From positions 1-37,214 of IMG/VR virus record IMGVR_UViG_3300045110_000179: a stretch of DNA of 37,214 bases, one strand, 5' to 3'. Below, piece by piece: positions 1-37,214 of this stretch. The notes under the pieces are model-generated. The model was not told where the DNA came from and made no database searches. It saw only the letters and a program-made list of their open reading frames with translations. Each line of letters begins with the position of its first letter. Within the stretch, counting starts at the first letter, position 1. The position numbers and the translations under genes were made by a program. The stretch comes from a virus.

Positions 1-1612
1 CGAGCTTGGCGAGCACGCGCGTCGCCGAGGACTCCACGTCATTGCGATGGACGTTGCAGTCGAGATCGGCGCGCGATTCCTGCAGGTAGTGGCTCACCGT
101 CTCGCGCGTGCCGTGCCGCACCAGGTCGGGCGTCGCCATCAAAAGATGATTGAGACAGCCGCGCGCGTTGTCCTCATAGCCGGTGGTTTCCGACAGCGTC
201 GCCGGCGGAAGGCGCGCGGCCCATTCCTTCGCGCGCTCCATGCTGAAATCGTCGTGCATCGAAAGGTCGTAGCCCGCGCCCAGCGCGCCGAACTGTTCGG
301 CCGCGCGCTTGTCGTGGCCCACCTGCAGTAGACAAAAGCGATAGGCCCGAAAAGTCTTGATGTAGCGCGGCCATTGCACCAGAAGCCGGCCGCGCAGCTG
401 CTTGCCGGTGCGCGCCCAGCTCTCGCGCGTGCCGAGCGTGACATCGTCGTCTTCCGGCGCATCCTCGTCAAACTCGAATTCCTCCTGGTCGCCGGCCGCG
501 TTCAGCGGCAAGAGCTCGCAGATCGCCAGCCGCGAACGGTTCTGCGGCGACAGCGCCTGCACATTGATCGAGCCGAACAGGAAGCAGGATCTCAGATTGT
601 AGGTCTTGGGATTGTTCTCGGTGCCGCCGCGGCCGACCTCGCCGCCGCTTGCCGCCACCGTCATGAGCTCCAGCACGCGCTCCTGTATGGCGTTGTCGGC
701 CTTGGCCTCGAATTCGTCGAGTGACACCGGCAGGCAGGAATCGCCGATGGTCTGGTAGATGAACGCCGGCGTCGCGTTGGCGGGGCGGATGATGCCCGCG
801 TCGCCGAACAGCCAGTTGATGAGCTTCTGCACGGTCGACTTGCCGCGCCCCTTGCCGCCCGTGATCCAGATCGCCGGCCGCCACGGCTGCGCCGCGCCCA
901 GCATCGCGCACAGGATCCAGCCCTGCACCAGCGCCGCGTCGACATCGTCGCGCGCCCAGTTCCACTCGCGCAGCATGTCGAAGAGGCGCGGGCCGGGCTC
1001 GCCGCTGAATTCGGGATGCGGCAACGGCGCGCGCTTGGGATAGAGCAGATCCTCGCGCACGCCGGTCTCGGTGGTGACGGAGTGCCCGCGCACGTTCATC
1101 ACCAGCTTGTCGCCGCAATGCATCACCAGCGTGCCGTCATCTTCCAGCCATGCGCCGCAGCCGCGCACCTTGTGCGCAGGATCCCAGATGCCTTTGTCGC
1201 GCGCCGAGCCGATCAGCACCGGGGCGATGTCGGCGTGGTTGAAATCGCCGGTCTTGTGCCAGTCTCCGTCCTTGTCCTGCTTCCACACCGGCCAGATCTC
1301 GGCCAGATATTCCTTGCCGCCGAACAGGGTGAGGATGTGGGTGCGGCCGTGCTCGGTCGGCGCCAGCTTGATGAGCTGGCCGTCGCAATCGAGATAGAAC
1401 GCATCGGTGCCGAGCTTTCCCAGCGCCTTCACCGGCGCGTCCGGCGGCAGGCGCAGCGGTTTCTTGCCGCGCGGATCGCTCGGCGGTGGCCCCTCGCCAG
1501 ATCCGCCGCCCGGCTTCTCCTTCTCGACCTTCGGCTTGGCGCGCACCTTCTTCGCCGGCGTCTCGATCGCCTTGCGCAGCTGCACAACCTTGTCGTCGGC
1601 GGCGTCGGTCAC
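1..1612 (-). CDS. D5/VapE-type replicative helicase, C-terminus cut by window edge
   Basis: Superfamily 3/AAA+ type ATPase, likely the phage replicative helicase acting with the Toprim primase encoded just upstream. I translated 537 codons that run off the left edge without a stop. The first ~55 residues are a basic, Pro/Gly-rich tail. Residues 252-260 are a Walker A loop (GGKGRGKST). Residues around 295-302 (PVSLDEFE) look like Walker B. A sensor-1-like strand (CFLFGSINV) follows near 345. The start is GTG at 1612, inside the GTGA overlap with the primase stop, so the two are translationally coupled. Related phage proteins usually run about 60-100 residues further, so a short C-terminal part is missing. 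The helicase class is fairly sure; exact family naming (VapE, D5 or DUF5906-like) is inferred from memory of such proteins. Confidence 0.8.
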   Translation of the reverse strand, partial: MTDAADDKVVQLRKAIETPAKKVRAKPKVEKEKPGGGSGEGPPPSDPRGKKPLRLPPDAPVKALGKLGTDAFYLDCDGQLIKLAPTEHGRTHILTLFGGKEYLAEIWPVWKQDKDGDWHKTGDFNHADIAPVLIGSARDKGIWDPAHKVRGCGAWLEDDGTLVMHCGDKLVMNVRGHSVTTETGVREDLLYPKRAPLPHPEFSGEPGPRLFDMLREWNWARDDVDAALVQGWILCAMLGAAQPWRPAIWITGGKGRGKSTVQKLINWLFGDAGIIRPANATPAFIYQTIGDSCLPVSLDEFEAKADNAIQERVLELMTVAASGGEVGRGGTENNPKTYNLRSCFLFGSINVQALSPQNRSRLAICELLPLNAAGDQEEFEFDEDAPEDDDVTLGTRESWARTGKQLRGRLLVQWPRYIKTFRAYRFCLLQVGHDKRAAEQFGALGAGYDLSMHDDFSMERAKEWAARLPPATLSETTGYEDNARGCLNHLLMATPDLVRHGTRETVSHYLQESRADLDCNVHRNDVESSATRVLAKL

Positions 1613-2733
1613 GCGGCTTGTCTCTCTCCCATCAGCACGGCGTTGAAGTCCTTGAAGCCCGGCGGCGCGCGCAGGATCTCGATGTCGTAGCCGCGTTCGG
1701 CCAGGCGCTCGGTGGCGCGATCGAGCGCGCGCGCGGCCTCGCCGTCCGGCTTGTCGTTGTCGGCGCACACGCCCACGGTCGCGATCTGCTTCGGCAGCGC
1801 GATCTTGGCGATGTTCTCCAAGGTGCCGGCCGCGAGCACGCGGGCCGCCGGCATGACGATCGCCGCCGACAGCGCGTTCTCGATGCCCTCGCTCACCAGC
1901 ACGCGCTCGCCCTCCGGCGCGCGCGCCAGCGGCTTGGCGCTATAGCCCTTGGCGAGGCGGATGGTGGCGCCGGCCTTCGGCCCGAGGATGGTCTTGCTGT
2001 CCTTGCCGAACGCCTTCCACCACCGCCCGCCCCGCTCCTGGCGCAGGAACGTGCGATGCACCGCGGCGAACCCGTTGGGTGCGCCTTCCAGATGCATGGC
2101 GGCCAGCATCCCCGTCTCGTCGGTGTATTCGTCTTGCGCCGTGTAGTGGCGCACCTCATGCGACCAGCGCAGCGCGCCGGGGATCTCGCCCAGCGCATGC
2201 ACGTCGATGCCGCGCGCGGCGAGATAGAGGCTCGCGGGATCGTGACCATCAAGAGGTTTCGCCGCCAGCCACATCGCCTGCGCGGCGCAGCGTTTCTTCT
2301 CGGCGGCGAGCTTCAATTCCTTCGTGCGTTTCGCCAGCGCCTTTGCGGCTTCTTCCTCGATCGCCTGGACGCGCGCGCGCGGCGCGTTGCGGTCGGTCAG
2401 CCCCAGCCAGTCCCGCGCCCAGCGGATCGCGCCGGGACGCGACGGGCCTTCCGTCTTCCAGCGGCCCTCGGTGGCAAAGGTCGCGACCAGCGACAGACAC
2501 GGCATGGTGCGCGAGCCGCGCTTGTCGGCCGCGAAATCCGCCCAGCGTCCGGTGTGGACGTTCACCGACAGCGAGCCCAGCCGTGCATCCGCACGGCCGG
2601 GATTGAGCGCGACCCATTCCGCGCCGCGCCGCTCGCCATCGGGCAGCAGCTCGCGCACAAGCGTTTCCAGCCGCGACGCGAGCATGTGCTCGATCGCCTC
2701 GACGGAAATGTCATGTGCGCGCGCCGGCTGCAT
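1609..2733 (-). CDS. Toprim-domain DNA primase
   Basis: A 374-residue primase of the phage/plasmid Toprim type, expected to make primers at the phage origin. The N-terminal part (about 20-75) carries the ALNPGRAD...GRWADFA pattern seen before the Toprim domain in these proteins, but without the Cys/His zinc ligands of CHC2 primases. A charged Lys/Glu-rich helical linker follows. The C-terminal third is Toprim: a Glu motif (VLVSEGIENALSAA), the acidic strand with ADNDKPDGEAA, and the final GFKDFNAVLM. I chose the ATG at 2733, which overlaps the stop of the upstream small gene as TGATG; a TTG one codon earlier is less likely. Its stop overlaps the helicase GTG. Confident about class, less about whether it synthesises primers alone. 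Confidence 0.85.
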   Translation of the reverse strand: MQPARAHDISVEAIEHMLASRLETLVRELLPDGERRGAEWVALNPGRADARLGSLSVNVHTGRWADFAADKRGSRTMPCLSLVATFATEGRWKTEGPSRPGAIRWARDWLGLTDRNAPRARVQAIEEEAAKALAKRTKELKLAAEKKRCAAQAMWLAAKPLDGHDPASLYLAARGIDVHALGEIPGALRWSHEVRHYTAQDEYTDETGMLAAMHLEGAPNGFAAVHRTFLRQERGGRWWKAFGKDSKTILGPKAGATIRLAKGYSAKPLARAPEGERVLVSEGIENALSAAIVMPAARVLAAGTLENIAKIALPKQIATVGVCADNDKPDGEAARALDRATERLAERGYDIEILRAPPGFKDFNAVLMGERQAA

Positions 2734-2885
2734 CAATCCTCAGCTTCGCCCTGGTCGATGCAGGCGTGCTGCTTCTTGACCGCTTCTTCGTGGGTCTGGC
2801 CGCGCGCCGGCTTCGGCTCACGTTTCTTGCGCGGTTTCTTTGGCGCGGATGATGTCTCGCCGCCGGATGCTTTCTGCTTTCCCAT
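2733..2885 (-). CDS. Small basic hypothetical protein of replication operon
   Basis: A 50-residue Lys/Arg/Glu-rich protein with no recognisable domain; the middle is a run of KKPRKKREPKPARG type. It sits between the winged-helix gene and the primase, and its TGA overlaps the primase ATG. The ATG at 2885 has a good ribosome site (GGAG, 7 nt spacing). A longer form starting from GTG at 2945, three bases after the previous stop, would add about 20 hydrophobic/basic residues and cannot be excluded. The charge and context suggest a nucleic-acid-binding helper, but that is only inference. Confidence 0.6.
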   Translation of the reverse strand: MGKQKASGGETSSAPKKPRKKREPKPARGQTHEEAVKKQHACIDQGEAED

Positions 2886-2946: not shown

Positions 2947-3498
2947 TCACGGCTCGACGTTCAGCGCGCGCAGCTCGCGGTCGATCGCGTCAAGTGCGCG
3001 CCTGGCTGTGCCGGCGATGACGCCGTTGGTCTTGCCGGCGAGCAGCTGCGCCACGCGACCCGGAAGGTTGCGCTCGAACATCGCGACGGTCTCGGCATCG
3101 GGCTCGGCGAACTTCGCGACCTGCGCGCGTTCCTCGGCGAGTGCGGCGGCGCGCGGGACATCGGCGAGTTTCAGGCGCGGCGTTGGCTTGTCAGTTGCCA
3201 TGTCGGGATCCTCTGTGGGTTTCAGCCGGTACACCGGCGCTGTCGTGTTCTTCGGGCCGACGATGCGGCGTTCGACCGTGCCGGTGTGCAGCAGGCGCGA
3301 CAGCGCGCGCCGGACCGAGCCTTCGCTCAGGAACGTGGCGGTCATCAGCGCCGCGATGGTCTGCTCGCCGGACTCCAGCGCGCGCACGATGCGCCGGCGG
3401 TTCTGCTCGCCGATGATCGCGCCGGCTTCCATGCCGTGTTCGAGCGCGCGCTGGCGCAACGCGCCGAACCGTCCCGGAATTCTCGCCTGCGCCAACAT
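2947..3498 (-). CDS. Winged-helix DNA-binding protein
   Basis: 183 residues. Residues about 30-95 read as a winged helix-turn-helix: an RRRIVRALESGEQTIAALM helix pair, a recognition-helix-like SEGSVRRALSRLLHTG, then a wing ending in APVYRLKP. The C-terminal half is helical with no recognised domain. It is the first gene after the early terminator and heads the replication genes, so it may be a transcription regulator or an origin-binding initiator; the sequence cannot decide. The ATG at 3498 has an AAGGG ribosome site 6 nt upstream. Only about 24 bases separate the terminator T-run from this start, leaving little room for a promoter. Expression therefore probably depends on read-through or antitermination. 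Confidence 0.7.
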   Translation of the reverse strand: MLAQARIPGRFGALRQRALEHGMEAGAIIGEQNRRRIVRALESGEQTIAALMTATFLSEGSVRRALSRLLHTGTVERRIVGPKNTTAPVYRLKPTEDPDMATDKPTPRLKLADVPRAAALAEERAQVAKFAEPDAETVAMFERNLPGRVAQLLAGKTNGVIAGTARRALDAIDRELRALNVEP

Positions 3499-4872: not shown

Positions 4873-5603
4873 GGGCTTGTCCTTTCACTGGGTTGGAACA
4901 GCGCACCGGGCGCCATCTTCTCGAACAGCGGAACGGGTGCGGGGTTGGCGAAACGCGCGGCATCGTCGAAGCGCGTGTAGCGGCGCTCGGTGCCGGACGG
5001 GAAAGGCCAGTGTGCGCGCGGCGCCTGTCCCTTGAAGAACACGAAGGCGGCATAGCAGCTCGCCGTCGAGAGATCGGGATCCCACGATCCCAGCTGCATC
5101 GACACGCGCTCGACGAACGGCATGATGCAGGTGAGCGGATGTTCGCTTTCGTAAAGCATCTTCTCGCGCCCCCCGCTTTCGAGAAACGCGATGCGGCAGA
5201 GCACGATCACGCCGCGGCGCGCGAGCTCCAGTCCACGCTCGATGAAATCGCCGGCGATCGCGAAGGGCGGATTGGTGACGATCCAGTCGCGGTCGTTGTA
5301 ACTTTTCGTGGCGCGCAGGAAATCGAGCAGCCAGCCGTGGCCGTAGTCGTAGATGTCGCTCGACATCACCTGTTCGCGGCCGAACACCTCGATCAGCGGC
5401 TCGGCAAAATGCCCCTCGCCGCAGGCGGGCTCCCAGATCGTGCGCGCCTGCGGATCCAGATCCTTGAGCCGGTATGCGATCGCGCGCGCGGCCCAGGGCG
5501 GCGTCGGGAAATAGTTGAGATTGCGGAACAGCGCCGCCTCGGGCGTGTCCTTGCGTACCTGCTTCGGCGCGCGTTGCTCCATCACGGCGGAGGACCGGTT
5601 CAT
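4869..5603 (-). CDS. DNA adenine-type methyltransferase
   Basis: 244 residues. This is a class I SAM-dependent DNA methyltransferase: motif I is EPACGEGHF (58-66), an acidic residue in SSDI (about 83) should hold the SAM ribose, and motif IV is NPPF (111-114), typical of N6-adenine enzymes. The upstream YFPTPPWAAR (31-40) is the usual lead-in of phage enzymes of this kind. There is no obvious separate specificity domain and no restriction endonuclease gene next to it, so it is an orphan enzyme, probably protecting phage DNA or marking host DNA. Both ends overlap neighbours by ATGA (5600-5603 and 4869-4872). Target sequence unknown. Confidence 0.85.
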   Translation of the reverse strand: MNRSSAVMEQRAPKQVRKDTPEAALFRNLNYFPTPPWAARAIAYRLKDLDPQARTIWEPACGEGHFAEPLIEVFGREQVMSSDIYDYGHGWLLDFLRATKSYNDRDWIVTNPPFAIAGDFIERGLELARRGVIVLCRIAFLESGGREKMLYESEHPLTCIMPFVERVSMQLGSWDPDLSTASCYAAFVFFKGQAPRAHWPFPSGTERRYTRFDDAARFANPAPVPLFEKMAPGALFQPSERTSP

Positions 5604-5926
5604 TGCGGGCTTCCCTCGATCAGCGCGCGTTCCTTCGCGCGACGTGCGGAGACGTCAGCGGCGGCGGCGCGATCGCGCGCGCGCACGATGCCCGCGACGA
5701 TCGACATGGTGAGCGGGCCGAGCTTGGTTGCGTTCTCGAAATAGTCGAACGACACCCCGCTCGAAACCAGCACGCCGATCATCGCGCATTGCTCATGGAC
5801 ATCGGCCGAGCGCGGGCCGGTGTTGGCGAGCGCGCGGCAATTGGAGATATTCAGCGCCGCGTCGACATCGACCGTCAGCGCATAGATATGTTCGTCGAAC
5901 GTGAAATCGCAGACGAGCTTGGTCAT
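5600..5926 (-). CDS. Small conserved-looking phage protein, possibly TSCPD-like
   Basis: 108 residues. The N-terminal half reads as a small beta domain (LVCDFTFDEHIYALTV), followed by NTGPRSADVHEQCAMIGVLV and a conserved-looking GPLTMSIVAGIV helix. The order (strand pair, helix with regular hydrophobic spacing, Gly-Pro-Leu helix) recalls small TSCPD-like proteins common in alphaproteobacterial phages, otherwise known as C-terminal domains of B12-dependent ribonucleotide reductases. I hold this loosely. Coupled to neighbours by ATGA at both ends, between a small secreted-like protein and the methyltransferase. Confidence 0.65.
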   Translation of the reverse strand: MTKLVCDFTFDEHIYALTVDVDAALNISNCRALANTGPRSADVHEQCAMIGVLVSSGVSFDYFENATKLGPLTMSIVAGIVRARDRAAAADVSARRAKERALIEGSPQ

Positions 5927-6144
5927 GGCCGCAGACCGTTCTCGAAGCGCAGTTCGCCGCGATCTATTTGCAGACGTCGGCGGCGAACTTCGCTTTCGCC
6001 ATTCGGTTGGTAGTGAGTCCCGGTCTTGCGGAAATTCTCTGAAACGACCGAGCGCCGGCCTTCATGCTGGATCGTCGCGCGATGTCGAAACATCGAGAGC
6101 GCGGCGGCGGCAGCGAGCAGAGAAAATATCGACTTGTTGAACAC
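5923..6144 (-). CDS. Small protein with N-terminal hydrophobic segment
   Basis: 73 residues starting at GTG (6144) behind a GAGAGGG ribosome site. The first ~18 residues (FNKSIFSLLAAAAALSMF) form a signal-anchor or signal-peptide-like stretch, followed by a basic, Arg-rich remainder with no recognised motif. Its stop overlaps the next gene start as ATGA, which supports it being real. Function unknown. Confidence 0.55.
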   Translation of the reverse strand: MFNKSIFSLLAAAAALSMFRHRATIQHEGRRSVVSENFRKTGTHYQPNGESEVRRRRLQIDRGELRFENGLRP

Positions 6145-6156
6145 GGTGCAGCCCTC

Positions 6157-6510
6157 TCAATCCCTGTTGTAGAAAGGTTGGTACTTGCGCGGGTTGGCCT
6201 CGGCATCGGCGCCGCGTTCCATCGCCAGCGCGTCCGACAGCATCAGCAGCGCGCAGCGCAGCGCCGGCATCGCCGACACATGGACATGCGGCAGCTGCTT
6301 GACGAGCGCGCGCGCCTGCGAGGCGATCATCGCCGCCGCCGCACTCGGCTCGGTCGCCGGCACGCGCGGCAGATCGTCGACGGCGTGCGCGAAATGCATG
6401 AACTGTTCGCGATCGGCCTTGTGCGCGCGGCGCAGGAAGTCGACCAGCTTGTCGACGGCCGGTTCGCCGTCGTCGCGGGTGCGGGTCGGAACGGCCGGGC
6501 GCGGGCTCAT
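6157..6510 (-). CDS. Hypothetical early protein
   Basis: 117 residues, family not recognised. It is predicted all-helical, with a basic N-terminus, a DKLVDFLRRAHKADREQF helix and a longer Ala-rich C-terminal helix bundle; no membrane segment and no cysteine cluster except one Cys near the end. The ATG overlaps the stop of the cro-like gene as ATGA, making it the second gene of the rightward-type early transcript. By position it could be a CII-like or anti-repressor function, but nothing in the sequence shows this. Confidence 0.6.
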   Translation of the reverse strand: MSPRPAVPTRTRDDGEPAVDKLVDFLRRAHKADREQFMHFAHAVDDLPRVPATEPSAAAAMIASQARALVKQLPHVHVSAMPALRCALLMLSDALAMERGADAEANPRKYQPFYNRD

Positions 6511-8307: not shown

Positions 8308-9552
8308 ATGCCTGTCGCGAACCGAGTCACGCCCATGCCCCGCAAATCGGCGCTGCCGCCCTATTTCATCTGGCGCAACGGTCGCCCGCGCTGGCAACCC
8401 GGCCCGGCGCTGCGCGCGCGCGGCTTCAAGGGCCAGGATCTAAAAGACGCGAGCGGCAAGTGGCTCGCGAAGGGCAAGGCGATCGACGCCGCCGAGACGA
8501 TCAACGCCGCGATTGCCGGCGATCTGCCCGTCGTCAAGCAGACCGGCGTGCGCACGCTCCACGACCTGTTCGAGAAATACAAAACCTCGCAAGGCTGGAA
8601 GAACCTCGCGTCGCGAACGCAGCACGACTATGGCGACCACATGAAGATCCTCGAAGCGTGGGGCGCGAACACGCCGCTCAATGCCATCAGCCCCGACGAC
8701 GTGCAGACGCTCTATGGCGAGCTGCGCACCGGCCGCGGGCTCACGCGCGCCAATGCGATCATCCGCACGCTGCGCCTCACCATGAATTTCGGACACGATG
8801 CGTTGAAGCCGCGCTTGGTCGACGACAATCCGGCGGCGAAGCCGAAGCTCAAGAAGGTCAAGGGCCGCATCGTCACCTGGTCGCCGGACGAGATCCGCGC
8901 CTTCGTCGCCGCCGCCGACTGGTGCGGACGCGCCGGCCAGGGTGACGCCATGATCCTCGCCGTCACCACGGCGTGGCAGCGCATCGACGTGATGACCGCG
9001 CCGCCGCTGGTGCGCGAGAGCGGCGTCTATCGCATGGCGCGCACCAAGAACGGCCGCGCGCAGTTCGCCCCGGCCAGCGCGCCGCTCGAACAGCGCCTCG
9101 CCATCATGCGCGCGCACAAGCAGAAGCTGTTCCCGAACGTCGCGTTCCCGACGGAGCTGGTCTGCACCAGCGCCGGCAATTACTACGGCCGGCCCTACAA
9201 TCCCGACGGCTTCTATTTCGCCGACGAGAACCGCGCCGTGCGCGCGCTCGCCGGCGGTCTCATCTTCGCGATCGAGGATTGCCTGCGCGCGATGGCGGGC
9301 CTGCCGGCGCTGCTGCGCAACCTGCCGTTCACGCCGACGCCGTCGATCCTCTCCAAGACCTTCGCCGACGCGCGCGACACCGGCATCACGATGGTGTTCA
9401 ACCACACCAAGGACATCGGCCGCACCGCGATCTTCTCCGGCCATTCGCTGCGCCACGTGCAGAGCGTGATCGACGAGCACTATTTCGACCGCAAGGCCGA
9501 GCTCGCCCTCGACGCCACCAACAGCTTCGACGCGCTGCTGGAGAATGCGTGA
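8308..9552 (+). CDS. int: Tyrosine recombinase integrase
   Basis: 414 residues, the usual length for a phage integrase. Residues about 80-185 form the core-binding SAM-like domain (TLHDLFEKYKTS...). The catalytic domain shows Arg225 (WQRIDVM), the beta-hairpin Lys247 (TKNGR), Arg356, His379 in SGHSL and nucleophile Tyr392 in EHYF. The Arg356-His379 and His379-Tyr392 spacings equal those in canonical family members. The HxxR box reads ADAR, so its histidine is Ala353, an unusual change. The first ~50 residues could bind arm sites. The start ATG has a GGAG site 8 nt upstream. attP lies just downstream, as expected. Confidence 0.9.
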   Translation: MPVANRVTPMPRKSALPPYFIWRNGRPRWQPGPALRARGFKGQDLKDASGKWLAKGKAIDAAETINAAIAGDLPVVKQTGVRTLHDLFEKYKTSQGWKNLASRTQHDYGDHMKILEAWGANTPLNAISPDDVQTLYGELRTGRGLTRANAIIRTLRLTMNFGHDALKPRLVDDNPAAKPKLKKVKGRIVTWSPDEIRAFVAAADWCGRAGQGDAMILAVTTAWQRIDVMTAPPLVRESGVYRMARTKNGRAQFAPASAPLEQRLAIMRAHKQKLFPNVAFPTELVCTSAGNYYGRPYNPDGFYFADENRAVRALAGGLIFAIEDCLRAMAGLPALLRNLPFTPTPSILSKTFADARDTGITMVFNHTKDIGRTAIFSGHSLRHVQSVIDEHYFDRKAELALDATNSFDALLENA

Positions 9553-9719: not shown

Positions 9720-9913
9720 AAAGTCGCACGTGCGACTGAGAAAGTCGCACGAACCGGAACATCCGTTCTGTTTTCGCGCTCCAAGCCATTGAATTTGTGG
9801 TGCCCAGGGGCGGAATTGAACCACCGACACGCGGATTTTCAATCCGAAAGCCGCCATGACAAATCAATGGCTTAGCGCGAAGCCGCCACCGCAAAACATG
9901 CGCAAGTCGCACG
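9720..9913. other. attP: Phage attachment site attP with tRNA-Phe 3' half
   Basis: On the minus strand 9851-9798 reads as the 3' half of tRNA-Phe: anticodon loop TTGAAAA (anticodon GAA), variable loop GTGTC, T arm GGTGG-TTCAATT-CCGCC, acceptor CCTGGGC, then ACCA. No 5' half precedes it. This is the usual attP identity block that restores a host tRNA on integration. Around it are copies of AAGTCGCACG at 9721-9730, 9742-9751 (direct), 9729-9737 (inverted) and 9904-9913, fitting integrase arm sites on both sides, plus a flanking inverted repeat AAGCCATTGA (9783-9792) / TCAATGGCTT (9864-9873). The 9-bp hairpin 9729-9751 could also act as a terminator. Otherwise 9705-9918 has no gene. Confidence 0.8.
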
Positions 9914-31879: not shown

Positions 31880-32169
31880 TTGTCTGTCTCCGTTTCAAGG
31901 TGGTCGATGTCTTCGTTGGTCAGCTTCGCCATCGTGGCGATGTGGATCCACACTTCGCGGCGCGAGCCGAGGGCGTGGCTTTCGTTCGGGTCGCCCTGCG
32001 CATAGGTGGTGTGGAAGGCGCAGCATTTGAGCGCGATGTCGGCGAACACCAGCGGGAATTGCGCGACGGCCTGTTCGTACTGGGCGCGCAGATCGGGTCC
32101 GCGGCGCGGCCAGTAGCGCGCGATCCAGTCGAGCACGACGCCTTTGCTGTAGGAAACGAAACGCCTCAT
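31876..32169 (-). CDS. Bbp19-like small phage protein
   Basis: 97 residues with the pattern of the BPP-1 Bbp19 group: an FVSYSKGVVLDWIARYW helix, a VFADIALKCCAFHTTY core, then DPNESHALGSRREVWIHI. This group is regularly found between portal and scaffold genes in such podoviruses; its job is not known to me. Overlaps both neighbours by ATGA. Confidence 0.75.
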   Translation of the reverse strand: MRRFVSYSKGVVLDWIARYWPRRGPDLRAQYEQAVAQFPLVFADIALKCCAFHTTYAQGDPNESHALGSRREVWIHIATMAKLTNEDIDHLETETDK

Positions 32170-33833
32170 GCAGCCTGCTTGGGTTGCGGCCCGCGCATGG
32201 TCTGGATCGCAGTCGCGCCGGATTGCGCGGCGGCGGTCGCATCCTTCGCGATCGTCGCGCCTTGTTGCGCCGCAATCATGCGCTGCTGCTGCTGGCGCGC
32301 GGCGTCGGTGGTGTCGTCATCGTTGAGGATGCCGTCGACGTTGTAGCCCTCGGCGACGATCTGCATTTCCTTGTCGGAATTGATGCGCGCCGAAGCGGTC
32401 GGATCGCGCGCGAGGATCGGCGCGATGCTCTGCTCGAAGCGCAGCACGCCGGCGGCGCGCGCGGATTTCTGCGCCTGCGCCATCGGCGACACGACGTTGA
32501 CCTGCAAGGTGTGGCCGGCGAGATCGGGCGGCGGCGGCGAAATGATCGGCTGGCCCGAAGCATCGGTAACGCGCAGCAAGCGGCGATAACGCAGCATGAA
32601 GGCCGGGATCAGGAAATCGCCGTTGATGCGGCCAAGATACGGCGCCATCATCCGAAGCGTCGCCTCCTGGCGCTCCAGCGTTTCGATCGGCGCGAGCCCG
32701 GTGCGGTTCATCACCGGCAGAAGCGAGAAATAGAAATATTCCTTGATCGCGCTGCGCAGCGCCTCCGCCATCTCGACCGAGAACGGCGGGCTCCCCATTT
32801 CGTAGAGCGGCTTGACGAGCTGGTTGCCGGCGCGATCGAGCGCGCCATAAGTGACCTTGCCGGGATGGTCGCGGATGATCGGCGTCGTCTGCTCGCTGTA
32901 GGCGCCGAGCGAAGGACGCGCGGCGCGCTCGCCGGCTTCGAGGTTCGCCTTGGTCATCACGTTCGACGATTTCACGTCCGGCAAGCTGAGCTCGCCGGGG
33001 CACTCGCGGCCGTAGCGTTCTCCTTCGGCAACGCCCCAGCGAAAACACTGGAACGGCAGATCCAGAAACCCGCCAACCTTGATCTCATGGCAGGTGTCGA
33101 TCTCCATCGAGACCGACGCCACCGGCTTGCCGGACGGCCCGATGCGATCCTGCACATAGCTCGAATTCGGTCCGATATACTGCAGGAACTCGCGCTTGTC
33201 GCACTTCCCTGCCTTCAGATCGGCTTGCGTTTTTTCCGACAGCGCCTGCGCCGTGAACATCGTCGCGGCCTGCGCCGGCGTCATCATCCAGCGGCGATAG
33301 AGCGTGTCGACCGTGCCTTCGCCGTCGGTGTCGATGTACGACGTCGAGAGCGCGCGGCAACGGTCGATGAAGCCGGAATGATCGGCGCGCACTTCCGTGG
33401 TGAAGATCGCGGTGCCGAAACCGGCGCCGTCGAGATAGAACGCGAGACATTGCGCGTAGAAGTCGCCGAAGTTCGGGCCGAAGCTCCCCAGCACCTGCTT
33501 CGATGTACGGTCGAGCCATGCGCGGTTTGGGCCGAAACGGTTGCGATCCTCATCGAGCGTGCCGAGGCCGCCCCATTGGTCGGCGGGATTGGAGGCGAGG
33601 CCATAGAGACCGGCGCCGAGATTTTGCAGGCCCTTGATGCCGGAGCCGTCGAACACCTTGCTCATGCGCTTGGTGCCTTCGGAATTCGTATTGCCGCGCA
33701 GTTCGGTGCGCAGCGGGCGGATCACTTCCGCGATGTCCGCCATGTGGGAGTCCCACGTCGCGCGGTCGTTCTTGAGTTCCTCCGCCTTCTTGACGAAGTC
33801 CTTGCAGCTGTCGGCGTTCTTGCCCTCGTCCAC
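32166..33833 (-). CDS. Portal (head-to-tail connecting protein)
   Basis: 555 residues, podoviral portal of the head-tail connector family: DRATWDSHMADIAEVIRPLR near the N-terminus, KRMSKVFDGSGIKGLQNLGAGLYG (about 58-80), then long mixed helices, and an Ala/Gln-rich C-terminal helix (AARQQQQRMIAAQQGATIAK) as the crown/barrel. It forms the dodecameric vertex through which DNA enters and leaves. GTG start 2 bases after the preceding stop; no strong ribosome site, so coupling probably matters. Length agrees with the family. Confidence 0.88.
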   Translation of the reverse strand: MDEGKNADSCKDFVKKAEELKNDRATWDSHMADIAEVIRPLRTELRGNTNSEGTKRMSKVFDGSGIKGLQNLGAGLYGLASNPADQWGGLGTLDEDRNRFGPNRAWLDRTSKQVLGSFGPNFGDFYAQCLAFYLDGAGFGTAIFTTEVRADHSGFIDRCRALSTSYIDTDGEGTVDTLYRRWMMTPAQAATMFTAQALSEKTQADLKAGKCDKREFLQYIGPNSSYVQDRIGPSGKPVASVSMEIDTCHEIKVGGFLDLPFQCFRWGVAEGERYGRECPGELSLPDVKSSNVMTKANLEAGERAARPSLGAYSEQTTPIIRDHPGKVTYGALDRAGNQLVKPLYEMGSPPFSVEMAEALRSAIKEYFYFSLLPVMNRTGLAPIETLERQEATLRMMAPYLGRINGDFLIPAFMLRYRRLLRVTDASGQPIISPPPPDLAGHTLQVNVVSPMAQAQKSARAAGVLRFEQSIAPILARDPTASARINSDKEMQIVAEGYNVDGILNDDDTTDAARQQQQRMIAAQQGATIAKDATAAAQSGATAIQTMRGPQPKQAA

Positions 33834-34012: not shown

Positions 34013-34508
34013 CAGGCTTCTCCCAGTCGCTTCGCCGCCAGGCGCAGAGCACATAGGGCTCGCGCCGACGGCCGTAATCCGGCAACAGCGTTTCCTCGAT
34101 CGCACCGCAGGCGCGCAGGAAGCGGCGCGAATCGGCGTGCGCGGCCAGCGCGCGTGCCTCCATGCGCGAGATCCCGGTGGCGAGAATTTGCGGCGCGGTG
34201 TCGCGGCGTATGTGGCGCACCAGCGCGCGCGCGAGCAGCGGAAAATCCGGCGTCGCGAACATCGCCGCCTCGGCCAGCCAGGGGGTCGCGTCGGAGGACC
34301 ATACGGCCACAACCGCTGTGGCGACCCGAGACGTGTCAAGCCCCGCGACGTAGCAGACGCGCATGCGCTCGCGGTTGGCGGCGAAGCCGGCGGCGAGCAG
34401 ATCGGGATCGCGCTCCGGCCGCACGTCCAGGATCTCGCGCGCGTCCATTTCGCGCATGTTGCGCGCGACATGCAGGATGTCCCCCGCCCACGGCTCGCGG
34501 ATCCACAT
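33972..34508 (-). CDS. gp13/GNAT-fold-like late protein
   Basis: 178 residues resembling the T7 gp13 group (DUF2833), which has an acetyltransferase-like fold: MREMDAREILDVRPERDPDLLAAG at the start, VCYVAGLDTSRVATAVVAVW as the central strand pair, TPWLAEAAMFATPDFPLLARALVRHI, then a Cys-containing LRACGAIEETLLPDYG. Whether it acetylates anything is unknown; in T7 gp13 is needed for virion assembly. It starts one base after the terL stop. The 30-bp late repeat (copy B) lies inside its coding sequence. Confidence 0.7.
   Translation of the reverse strand: MWIREPWAGDILHVARNMREMDAREILDVRPERDPDLLAAGFAANRERMRVCYVAGLDTSRVATAVVAVWSSDATPWLAEAAMFATPDFPLLARALVRHIRRDTAPQILATGISRMEARALAAHADSRRFLRACGAIEETLLPDYGRRREPYVLCAWRRSDWEKPDVLEHSETRPSDL
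34311..34340 (-). promoter_or_regulatory. 30-bp late repeat, copy B (inside gp13-like gene)
   Basis: Same 25 fixed bases as copies A and C; only the five spacer bases differ. Its codons give Leu-Asp-Thr-Ser-Arg-Val-Ala-Thr-Ala-Val in the gp13-like protein. It lies about 300 bases before the small gene at 34012 and 478 before the portal start. Confidence 0.6.
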
Positions 34509-36086
34509 TCAGAAATCCCGCAGCGGATCGTATTGCTCGACCTCGCCGCCGCGGCGCGAGCGTTCCTTCGCGCGACGGCTGCGCAGATGCTTGAAATCGC
34601 CGGAACCGATCACGGCGTATTGCAGCGCGTCGTGCGGGTGGGTCCACGGGTTGTCGACCGGCGATAGTGGCGAGCGTTTGTCGCCCTGGCGGTTCTCCAA
34701 AATCTCGAAGCAGTATTTCGACATGAAGCCCTTGCGCAGCACCTTGCAGCGCGGCGACAGGCGGAACATCGGCCGGCCGCTATCGAGTTCGTTGAGCAGT
34801 TGCGCCACGCCCATGCGGCGCGGCCCGAAATCGTTTGTCGGCACTTCGCCGCAATAGGTGCGGTCGAGCTCGGCGGCATCGAGAAACGCATCGAGCCACA
34901 CGACCTTGTCGACCATGTCGTTCGGATTGTCGGTCGCCGGGTCGGCGTAGATGCGCATGTTGCGCAGGTTGGGGAATTCGTCGGCGACAAACTGGGAAAA
35001 TTTCTCGCCGAACTTGTCGGCGCTGCAGCGATGTTCCGGAATGCATTCCGCGAGGACGTCGAAGCCGCCCATCAAACGGCGCTGCGCGAACACGGCGCAC
35101 GCATCGCGACCGCCATCGACGCCGACGATCAGGTCGCGCGTCGGATCGTATTGGACGTCGATCGGCGCGGTGTGAAGATCGTCGTTGAATTCCGGATAGA
35201 CCGGCTCGCCACTGCGGCTGTAGCCGGGCTTGTTGTGAACGAAGCGGTTGATCCACCACGGATCGGCGTTTTTCTTCATCAGGTTGGCGTAGTAGCCGGG
35301 CCGCAGGTTCGGAAGATTTTCCGCGCCGGGATCGAGCCCGCCGGGCTGCACGAAGTTCTTCCAGCCTGGGATCGGTTTCTCGATGAAGTTTTTGTAGAGG
35401 TGGTTGTCCTCGTCCGGCGCATTGTAGTCGGTGAACAGCTTGGCGTATTTGTCGACCTCGTCGCCCCAGTTCTCCGGCCGCTGCTCGCGCGAGGGATAGC
35501 GCGACAGGCGCGGCGTCATGAAGATCGTGAACAGTTCCTCCGGCACCGAATCACCGGCGTTGACGAAACAGTTGGTGAGCTGCAGTCCGTCGCAGAATTG
35601 GCGCACGTTGTGGTCGCCGACCGCGACAAAGATCACCTCCCAGTCGAGTTCGGTGCCATCCTGCAAAGCCCAGCGAATCCGCGCGCGACCGGGCTCGCCC
35701 GACCCTCCGCCGCGCCACTCGCCAAGGTCGCGCGGAAAGTTCTCGAACCAGGACGAAAGCGTGTTAAGCTCTAGGTTCCTGTAAGTGTCGCGAATTACAC
35801 CCGTCCGTGCATATCGAACGCCATCGACCGGCGAAGGTGGCACGGCAATCGAGCAGACCAGACCTTTGACGAAACCCGCCGTCGTCTTGCCGGATCCCCA
35901 CGGCCCCATGATTCCGCTCGTAAGCGCGGAGCTGAACACGAAGCTGCGCGCCACCGGGCCGGACGGAATCCATTTCAGACCTTCGCCGACAGAGTGCTGC
36001 GCCGCCGGCTTCGGCATCGGCTCAACGAGCATCGCGACTTCGCGATCGGAAAGTGGCGTGCCGGTCTGATCGGCGTCTTCGCTCAT
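34509..36086 (-). CDS. terL: Terminase large subunit
   Basis: 525 residues, the DNA-packaging motor. The ATPase domain has Walker A GPWGSGKTT (61-69) and the strand NCFVNAGDSVPEE (172-184) followed by MTPRLSRYPS in the Walker B place. The nuclease domain of RNase H fold shows Asp324 (VGVDGG), Asp382 (YADPA) and Asp486 (HPHDALQY). Length is normal. ATG with a GGGG-rich region upstream; the next gene starts immediately after its stop. The Walker B strand lacks the usual Asn-Glu pair (Asn176-Ala177 here), an oddity to note. It works with the small subunit encoded 327 bases upstream. Confidence 0.9.
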   Translation of the reverse strand: MSEDADQTGTPLSDREVAMLVEPMPKPAAQHSVGEGLKWIPSGPVARSFVFSSALTSGIMGPWGSGKTTAGFVKGLVCSIAVPPSPVDGVRYARTGVIRDTYRNLELNTLSSWFENFPRDLGEWRGGGSGEPGRARIRWALQDGTELDWEVIFVAVGDHNVRQFCDGLQLTNCFVNAGDSVPEELFTIFMTPRLSRYPSREQRPENWGDEVDKYAKLFTDYNAPDEDNHLYKNFIEKPIPGWKNFVQPGGLDPGAENLPNLRPGYYANLMKKNADPWWINRFVHNKPGYSRSGEPVYPEFNDDLHTAPIDVQYDPTRDLIVGVDGGRDACAVFAQRRLMGGFDVLAECIPEHRCSADKFGEKFSQFVADEFPNLRNMRIYADPATDNPNDMVDKVVWLDAFLDAAELDRTYCGEVPTNDFGPRRMGVAQLLNELDSGRPMFRLSPRCKVLRKGFMSKYCFEILENRQGDKRSPLSPVDNPWTHPHDALQYAVIGSGDFKHLRSRRAKERSRRGGEVEQYDPLRDF

Positions 36087-36413: not shown

Positions 36414-36971
36414 CTAAGCCGTTGTTTCATCTTCACTTTCCTCGGGAGGCGCGAGACGCGCGATCTCGCCGCCGGCGTGGGGGTCGAAGCCCTCGGCGAT
36501 CTCGGCGGCGAGCTGGCCGGCAAGCAGGTCCATGATCGCTTGCGGGCCGATGGCGGCACCGCCGCCGGGCATCGGCACCGAGACGTTGAACGTCGCCACC
36601 TTGCCCGACACCGCGACCGCCAGCGGCTGTTTGCTGTACAGGTACGGCATCACATCGGCGCGCACCTTGCGCTGGAATTCCGCGGCTTCGAGCAGATCGC
36701 AACCGAGCATCCGGCGCAGGCTTTCCAGCGGGATCGTGAGCAGGCGCGCGCTCGCGAGCAGCTGGTCACCGGCGATCTGCTCGAACAGCATCAGGCGCTG
36801 CCTGGTGGCGATGTTCTTGGCGCCAGGCGGCCGACCTTTGCCGAACCTCCGCGCGATCGCGGCCTCGTCGGCCTGCACGACCGGCGACTCCATCGCCAGC
36901 AGGTCGCCCGCGATCCGCGGAGCCGTCCCGCCTCCCGGTGAATCCCCCCTGATTTCGTCGTCGGCGGCCAT
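36414..36971 (-). CDS. terS: Probable terminase small subunit
   Basis: 185 residues, first late gene and upstream of terL, the usual place of terS. After a variable N-terminus comes a basic region FGKGRPPGAKNIATRQRLM (about 43-61) with helix content, then Leu-rich helices (LFEQIAGDQLLASARLLTIPLESLRRML) that could oligomerise, and a C-terminal acidic tail. The DNA-binding HTH is weak by eye. The ATG at 36971 has no ribosome site and lies a few bases past a hairpin terminator; a Met at residue 27 is an alternative start. Its transcript probably begins at repeat copy A. Confidence 0.7.
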   Translation of the reverse strand: MAADDEIRGDSPGGGTAPRIAGDLLAMESPVVQADEAAIARRFGKGRPPGAKNIATRQRLMLFEQIAGDQLLASARLLTIPLESLRRMLGCDLLEAAEFQRKVRADVMPYLYSKQPLAVAVSGKVATFNVSVPMPGGGAAIGPQAIMDLLAGQLAAEIAEGFDPHAGGEIARLAPPEESEDETTA

Positions 36972-36977
36972 CGGCGC

Positions 36978-37006
36978 AAAAAGCCGGAATATCCGGCCCT
37001 TTTTTT
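36978..37006. terminator. Bidirectional hairpin terminator before terS
   Basis: GCCGGA (36983-36988), ATA loop, TCCGGC (36992-36997). On the plus strand it is followed by seven T residues (37000-37006); on the minus strand by five (36982-36978). It lies between repeat A and the terS start, so on the late strand it acts as an attenuator or ends transcription from the early side. Confidence 0.7.
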
Positions 37007-37053: not shown

Positions 37054-37091
37054 CCTTCCGGCATCAGGAGGCGAATTCGCGCAGCGTTTGC

Positions 37092-37174
37092 GGGACACCG
37101 GGACACCGGGCGGGACACCTAAACCTATATATATCAATAGGTTATATAGTAGTGTCCCGGTGTCCCGGTGTCCC
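37092..37174. repeat. Inverted array of GGGACACC iterons with AT-rich centre
   Basis: Left arm: GGGACACC at 37092-37099, 37100-37107 and 37112-37119. Right arm: the reverse complement GGTGTCCC at 37159-37166 and 37167-37174 plus GTGTCCC at 37152-37158. Between them a 32-bp AT-rich centre holds a second dyad AACCTAT (37122-37128) / ATAGGTT (37137-37143) with TATA-like runs. Iterons around an AT-rich core suggest a replication origin or a strong regulator site. No gene in 36972-37214. Confidence 0.75.
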
Positions 37175-37214
37175 GCGCCCATTCCACGTAAGCGCGCGCG
37201 CGTGGGCATGAGCG

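Follow-up and report, generated by a model that had tools for sequence, protein, structure and literature searches.

What is the short array of facing repeats at the right end of this viral contig, and which protein would read it? The window, meaning here the whole analysed stretch of 37,214 bases, is a linear record without end repeats, and the array occupies its positions 37092-37174. An earlier note had proposed an iteron origin or a large regulator site, with a winged-helix protein as a possible binder. To our knowledge, most phage genomes have their replication origins unannotated.

The array contains six exact copies of GGGACAC, three forward and three inverted. The longer unit GGGACACC occurs exactly five times in the whole window and always within the array, at 37092, 37100 and 37112 on the plus strand and at 37159 and 37167 on the minus strand, and the sixth unit at 37151-37158 (-), GGGACACT, has a single mismatch to it in the last letter. 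This 8-mer is expected 0.94 times per shuffle and reached at least five copies in 0/100 shuffles. When any one 7-mer with at least three copies per orientation within 90 bp was sought, 0/300 dinucleotide shuffles equalled the array, and the rest of the window gave at best one copy per orientation. The nested inverted array, with three units against three, is therefore real.

The outer triplet (37092..37119, +) lies on the terminase side and consists of three exact GGGACACC units at spacings of 8 and 12, a class seen also in relatives, while the inner triplet (37151..37174, -) faces the helicase side at spacings of 8 and 8. The two sides differ in unit spacing, which corrects the earlier note. 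The outer arms at 37090-37110 and 37156-37176 form a perfect 21-bp inverted repeat. Between the triplets is the AT-rich centre at 37120..37150 (~31 bases), a candidate melting region that indeed contains its own 7-bp dyad, AACCTAT/ATAGGTT, at 37122-37128 and 37137-37143. An exact match to the IHF consensus, WATCAANNNNTTR, is at 37132..37144 (+). An alternating purine-pyrimidine tract, GCGCGCGCGCGTG, follows at 37192..37204 and is probably the middle of the full element, as runs of at least 12 are typical of the related arrays.

Read from the right end, the window has the array, a small-terminase-like gene (36414..36971, -), the large terminase gene that starts the late genes (34509..36086, -) and the head-tail adaptor gene (32166-33833, -). 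The small-terminase-like gene is named from its position and from homologues at the same place in relatives, with no Pfam or PHROG match of its own, and the large terminase from tblastn matches to annotated TerL such as that of Burkholderia phage BcepC6B (31% identity). At the left end, a Toprim primase gene (1609..2736, -; PF13362 Toprim_3, PF23639 DUF7146; phrog_510) comes just before the helicase gene (2..1768, -), which is assigned by phrog_21086 (E 5e-58), phrog_35358 'DNA primase' (E 4e-42) and alignment to full-length relatives. The cumulative GC-skew maximum (1.22) falls at 34501-35500, ~1.6-2.6 kb from the array, on a curve that may simply follow gene direction, and so speaks neither for an origin at the array nor against one.

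The helicase frame runs off the left end and is ~120 C-terminal residues short of its nearest relative, L053, so the element is cut on the helicase side. The missing part is the putative C-terminal DNA-binding domain. The circular map assumed in the earlier note was inference only for this linear record. When the helicase frame was followed across the joined ends, no relative-like C-terminus appeared, and therefore sequence is missing between the window ends. We read the window array as the second half of a larger element, whose first half lies off the contig along with the ~120 helicase residues; the extent first noted is that of this half, the rest being lost at the contig end.

Elsewhere in the window, a stretch resembling a tRNA 3' end, GGTGGTTCAATTCCGCCCCTGGGCACCA, is found at 9798-9842 (-) beside an open reading frame (8308-9552, +) that looks by eye like an integrase gene without a Pfam match. 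ARAGORN calls no tRNA in the window, and the stretch is a possible attachment site.

Relatives identified by the helicase protein have an array in the same place, with GGGACA in L053, the nearest one (48%), but with another word, GGAACC, in L006, L008, L009 and L011. Since loci chosen by a word cannot show the diversity of the word, a panel was built by the helicase protein only, from 80 IMG/VR loci and 30 bacterial-genome loci. All entered except L301, whose match reaches its contig end, and 104 of the 109 have 2.5 kb downstream. The search, blind to the word, asked for at least 7 copies of a single 6-mer inside 260 bp, with both orientations represented.

In 89/104 loci such an array follows the helicase stop within 2.5 kb, versus 5/94 upstream stretches, and in 87/104, at a median offset of 199 bp, no other such repeat of the locus is stronger. 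It is absent from the downstream 2.5 kb at this threshold in 15/104. In L224 and L291, the best inverted iteron array is ~4-6 kb upstream of the helicase stop. Later contigs collected with a different helicase query gave the same picture, 41/45 downstream versus 0/39 in upstream controls, one of the 45 (L450) being the contig of L017 that had been met in a word-selected scan. The common gene order of the panel is primase, helicase, TerS-like and TerL, and the array sits between the helicase and TerS genes, before TerL. Among the titles of the genome set are Sphingomonas, Brevundimonas, Oricola, Ancylobacter, Martelella and Nitratireductor.

The exact-word route, an IMG/VR scan for GGGACA arrays, led to phages with several kinds of helicase and terminase and was set aside because its loci had been picked by the word. 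Many of the loci among the matches listed hold an isolated pair only. In the GC-rich phage loci L003, L005, L021, L027, L123, L125 and L159, GGGACA and TGTCCC are mixed irregularly and very densely, with as many as 30 in ~500 bp and partly inside open frames, which looks like a different use of a similar word. Direct tandem runs only, of a similar word without inverted copies and in some cases in open frames, are found in L016, L023, L029, L037 and L066 and are probably another feature.

VapE-type helicases offer supportive but weaker evidence for a second family with the array. At least 7 copies are downstream in 18/82 of their loci versus 0/69 upstream, and in many of the remaining loci a GGGACA-like word is present 4-6 times, at about +370 to +410. 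Unannotated inverted arrays of TGTCCCAC or GGTCACCCC words lie beyond the VapE-type primase/helicase genes at ~5950-6250 of the loci of Pseudomonas phages Haddon, vB_Pae_U5 and LPPA36 (L187, L193 and L194) and at ~5590-5870 of that of Marinobacter phage PS3 (L188). These are candidate origins in culturable phages.

Across the helicase-selected panel, the layout recurs. Arrays of 11 to 13 iterons make up 53/80, with a median span of 246 bp, and neighbours in the same orientation are spaced by 8 or 9 bp (248 cases) or by 11 or 12 bp (146 cases). The most regular ones, in L225 and L300, are arranged as <<<>>><<<>>> with inner spacing of 8 and outer spacing of 11-12, and other loci vary. In all 80/80 arrays, the AT content of a gap between neighbouring iterons exceeds that of the locus by >0.1. 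Alternating purine-pyrimidine runs of 12 or more are present in 70/80 arrays versus 5/80 control stretches, and the exact IHF consensus in 14/80 versus 0/80.

An inverted repeat between operons might instead serve as RNA structure, a hairpin or a terminator, and the minus strand of the array does fold at -61.9 kcal/mol (z -8.7). However, such folding is expected of any inverted array, and the window has no Rfam family match. The facing groups of relatives often differ in spacing (8/9 versus 11/12), so that one stem is not kept across them. The sole terminator-like site found, a hairpin with a T run, is elsewhere, at 36983-36997 (+) between the array and the small-terminase-like gene. We consider the RNA explanation extremely improbable.

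The array also sits between early and late genes, and inverted repeats would suit a phage regulator that binds there and switches early to late transcription. The winged-helix protein (2947-3498) put forward earlier as a possible binder is the candidate for that role, but tblastn matched it in 0/81 panel loci, with at least 5.5 kb of sequence ahead of the helicase stop in 68 of these. No sigma-70-like promoter was found at the site by scans that are weak for this purpose, and 11-13 sites over ~246 bp with AT-rich gaps exceed what a simple operator needs. An operator as the main function is thus very unlikely, while dual use of the array by the helicase for autoregulation is possible. As to other initiators, no RepA/pi winged-helix-type Rep was found among the 10 window proteins compared with Pfam and the 10 compared with PHROGs.

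The word itself is hypervariable. Iterons were assigned by eye as NNNNACN in 95 loci before any residue was inspected, and they comprise 46 distinct 7-mers. Left without an assignment were L196, L197, L200, L232, L234, L250, L289, L293 and L302, which have no array of 7, and L207, L212, L224, L285 and L291, where the array is weak or elsewhere. A tree of the core helicase requires at least 59 changes of the iteron. The layout stays across relatives and the word changes, apparently in step with a helicase amino acid, as the following comparisons suggest.

In a Mantel-type model with all genes together (73 loci at <90% identity), the best partial predictor of the word is the identity of the helicase C-terminus (coefficient -0.127, p 0.003). 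The primase is weaker (p 0.032), the helicase core is borderline (p 0.056), and TerS and TerL have no partial link (p 0.43 and 0.95). This bears on a packaging site, in which a cosB- or pac-like array would let the small terminase and IHF start DNA packaging. The array is just upstream of the small-terminase-like gene, and repeats with an IHF consensus are reminiscent of lambda cosB, but neither terminase predicts the word with the helicase in the model. Moreover, phages with the VapE-type primase have an antitermination-Q-like gene between the array and the large terminase, and in one phage only, Variovorax phage VarioGold, the annotated cosR end is ~1.6 kb from the TGTCCAC repeats. Packaging is hence a very unlikely function of the array.

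The helicase link can be narrowed to single residues. Among 1324 columns scanned in four proteins, helicase residue 668 ranks first (z -7.1) and residue 663 second (z -7.0) in L195 numbering, although shared ancestry is not fully removed, because 3 further helicase columns and 4 TerL columns also pass the thresholds (down to z -5.3). Across 81 loci, base -2 is G with K668 (16/16) and A with Q668 (7/7), mostly T with T668 and mostly G with S668. Likewise, base -3 is mostly G with R or K663 and often C with other residues. In 28 representatives at <50% core identity, both links persist and the crossed pairings lack significance. The tree-based independent pairs mostly point in the same direction but are too few and not significant.

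Rules for both residues were fixed before the last scan and applied to the later contigs. A script assigned their iterons, and ambiguous cases were removed before any look at the residues. Of the 45 contigs, 4 were without an array, 10 ambiguous, 11 too similar and 20 tested. Where the residue-668 rule made a call, base -2 came out right in 18/18 loci (p 0.0001; mean of 9.4 under permutation). Counting each distinct iteron once gives 8/8 (p 0.003), which is the fairer figure because 11/18 successes form one S/T663-Q668 group. The residue-663 rule, also set beforehand, failed with base -3 correct in 5/20 (p 0.19); post hoc, S or T is with T (11/11) and K with A, C or G. From the window iteron CGGGACA, residue 668 of the missing helicase end is therefore predicted to be K, R or S, and in the panel, L195 and L300, whose words come closest to this one, carry R668.

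Taken at the level of the relatives, the recurrence of the array in the interval that follows the helicase gene and precedes the terminase genes, the conservation of its layout and the covariation of its word with the helicase uphold the iteron origin of the earlier note. The binder is likely the helicase's own C-terminal domain, the part absent from the window contig. The link of the window to this reading domain goes through relatives because its own helicase is without that domain.

The helicase of L195, 45% identical to the part present in the window, was modelled confidently, with a mean pLDDT of 86.5. Residues 663 and 668 are within a beta-hairpin (657-675) that follows a helix (635-641) in the C-terminal domain of the model. 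Its structure is closest to that of SCCmec Cch (5dgk; Z 17.1, rmsd 6.3, 424 residues), followed by the SaPI5 primase-helicase, Rep (7om0; Z 16.2). However, MCM proteins score closely (3f8t, 15.8), so membership in the Cch/SaPI Rep group is unproven by the ranking alone. The C-terminal domain by itself has no clear fold match, the best among the matches listed being a heat shock factor DNA-binding domain (Z 3.1), followed by a pCW3 relaxosome accessory protein (Z 3.0).

The alpha protein of satellite phage P4, also a primase-helicase of the phage type, recognises short repeats in its own origin, ori. A further likeness is with SaPI Rep and SCCmec Cch/Cch2, the closest fold matches being 5dgk and 7om0/7ola; PMC7581432 describes for them a primase and helicase module with an iteron array downstream of the helicase gene. 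According to PMC7581432, SaPI Rep proteins bind iterons just downstream of their own genes, and the isolated C-terminal domain of Cch2 binds a repeat region just downstream of its own gene. Thus, binding of the array by the C-terminal domain is shown for Cch2 and is here proposed for the phage helicase. The present arrays differ in being carried by temperate tailed phages, many in Alphaproteobacteria, and in grouping their 11-13 iterons in opposing orientations at two classes of spacing. The Cch2 site has three 5-nt direct repeats conserved between elements (PMC7581432), whereas the word here differs between phages in line with a helicase residue.

Two other systems resemble the phage one in how the origin and its initiator are paired. 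In geminiviruses (PMC12548392), the position and repeat pattern of the iterons are conserved and the word is diverse and paired with the initiator Rep, but these are single-stranded DNA plant viruses with rolling-circle replication and unrelated proteins. In PLE, the DNA-binding domain of the RepA_N initiator covaries with the origin and an origin change lets the element escape its rival (PMC8263062, PMC7145576). When an origin-directed nuclease attacks them, PLE origins change (PMC8263062). PLE differs in that its RepA_N initiator is described there without predicted helicase or primase activity and its iterons are three of ~30 bp (PMC8263062, PMC7145576).

We conclude that the window array is most likely the terminase-side half of an origin at which the phage starts replication and to which its own self-loading helicase binds, a conclusion drawn by computation. 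The helicase, encoded just before the site along with the Toprim primase, would be the initiator. Its C-terminal DNA-binding domain would recognise the iterons and assemble on the inverted groups, and the AT-rich centre would be opened, perhaps with bending by IHF. The helicase would then load on the strands and replication would start with the phage primase. What the computation shows is the array, where it recurs and how it is laid out among relatives, how fast the word changes and the statistical tie of the word to helicase residue 668; we infer the binding, melting, loading and fork direction as well as any role of IHF.

An initiator helicase with a downstream iteron origin is already known from SaPI and SCCmec elements. 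What appears to be new is its occurrence across temperate phages, a layout of several groups at two spacings and a hypervariable word tied to a helicase residue, inasmuch as the open PMC literature, which leaves most subscription papers outside, yielded no published report of such phage origins or of a residue-word code.

More tentatively, and with somewhat less than even confidence, a large clade of temperate phages may carry replicons with self-loading helicases, the identity of the origin acting as a fast-changing password that would keep co-resident prophages and satellites from firing or hijacking each other's origins. The password would be written on a roughly fixed scaffold of ~12 sites in a hypervariable word that is read by the helicase beta-hairpin. 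The code proposed from residue 668 to base -2 is G for K, R or S, A for Q, and T for T and other small or aliphatic residues. In this clade, the origin can be located from the helicase gene alone and one base of the word predicted from a residue. The clade is thus a natural series of initiator and origin pairs for how DNA-binding specificity shifts without killing the replicon, and bears on why origins diversify, be it by incompatibility, satellites or origin-directed nucleases.
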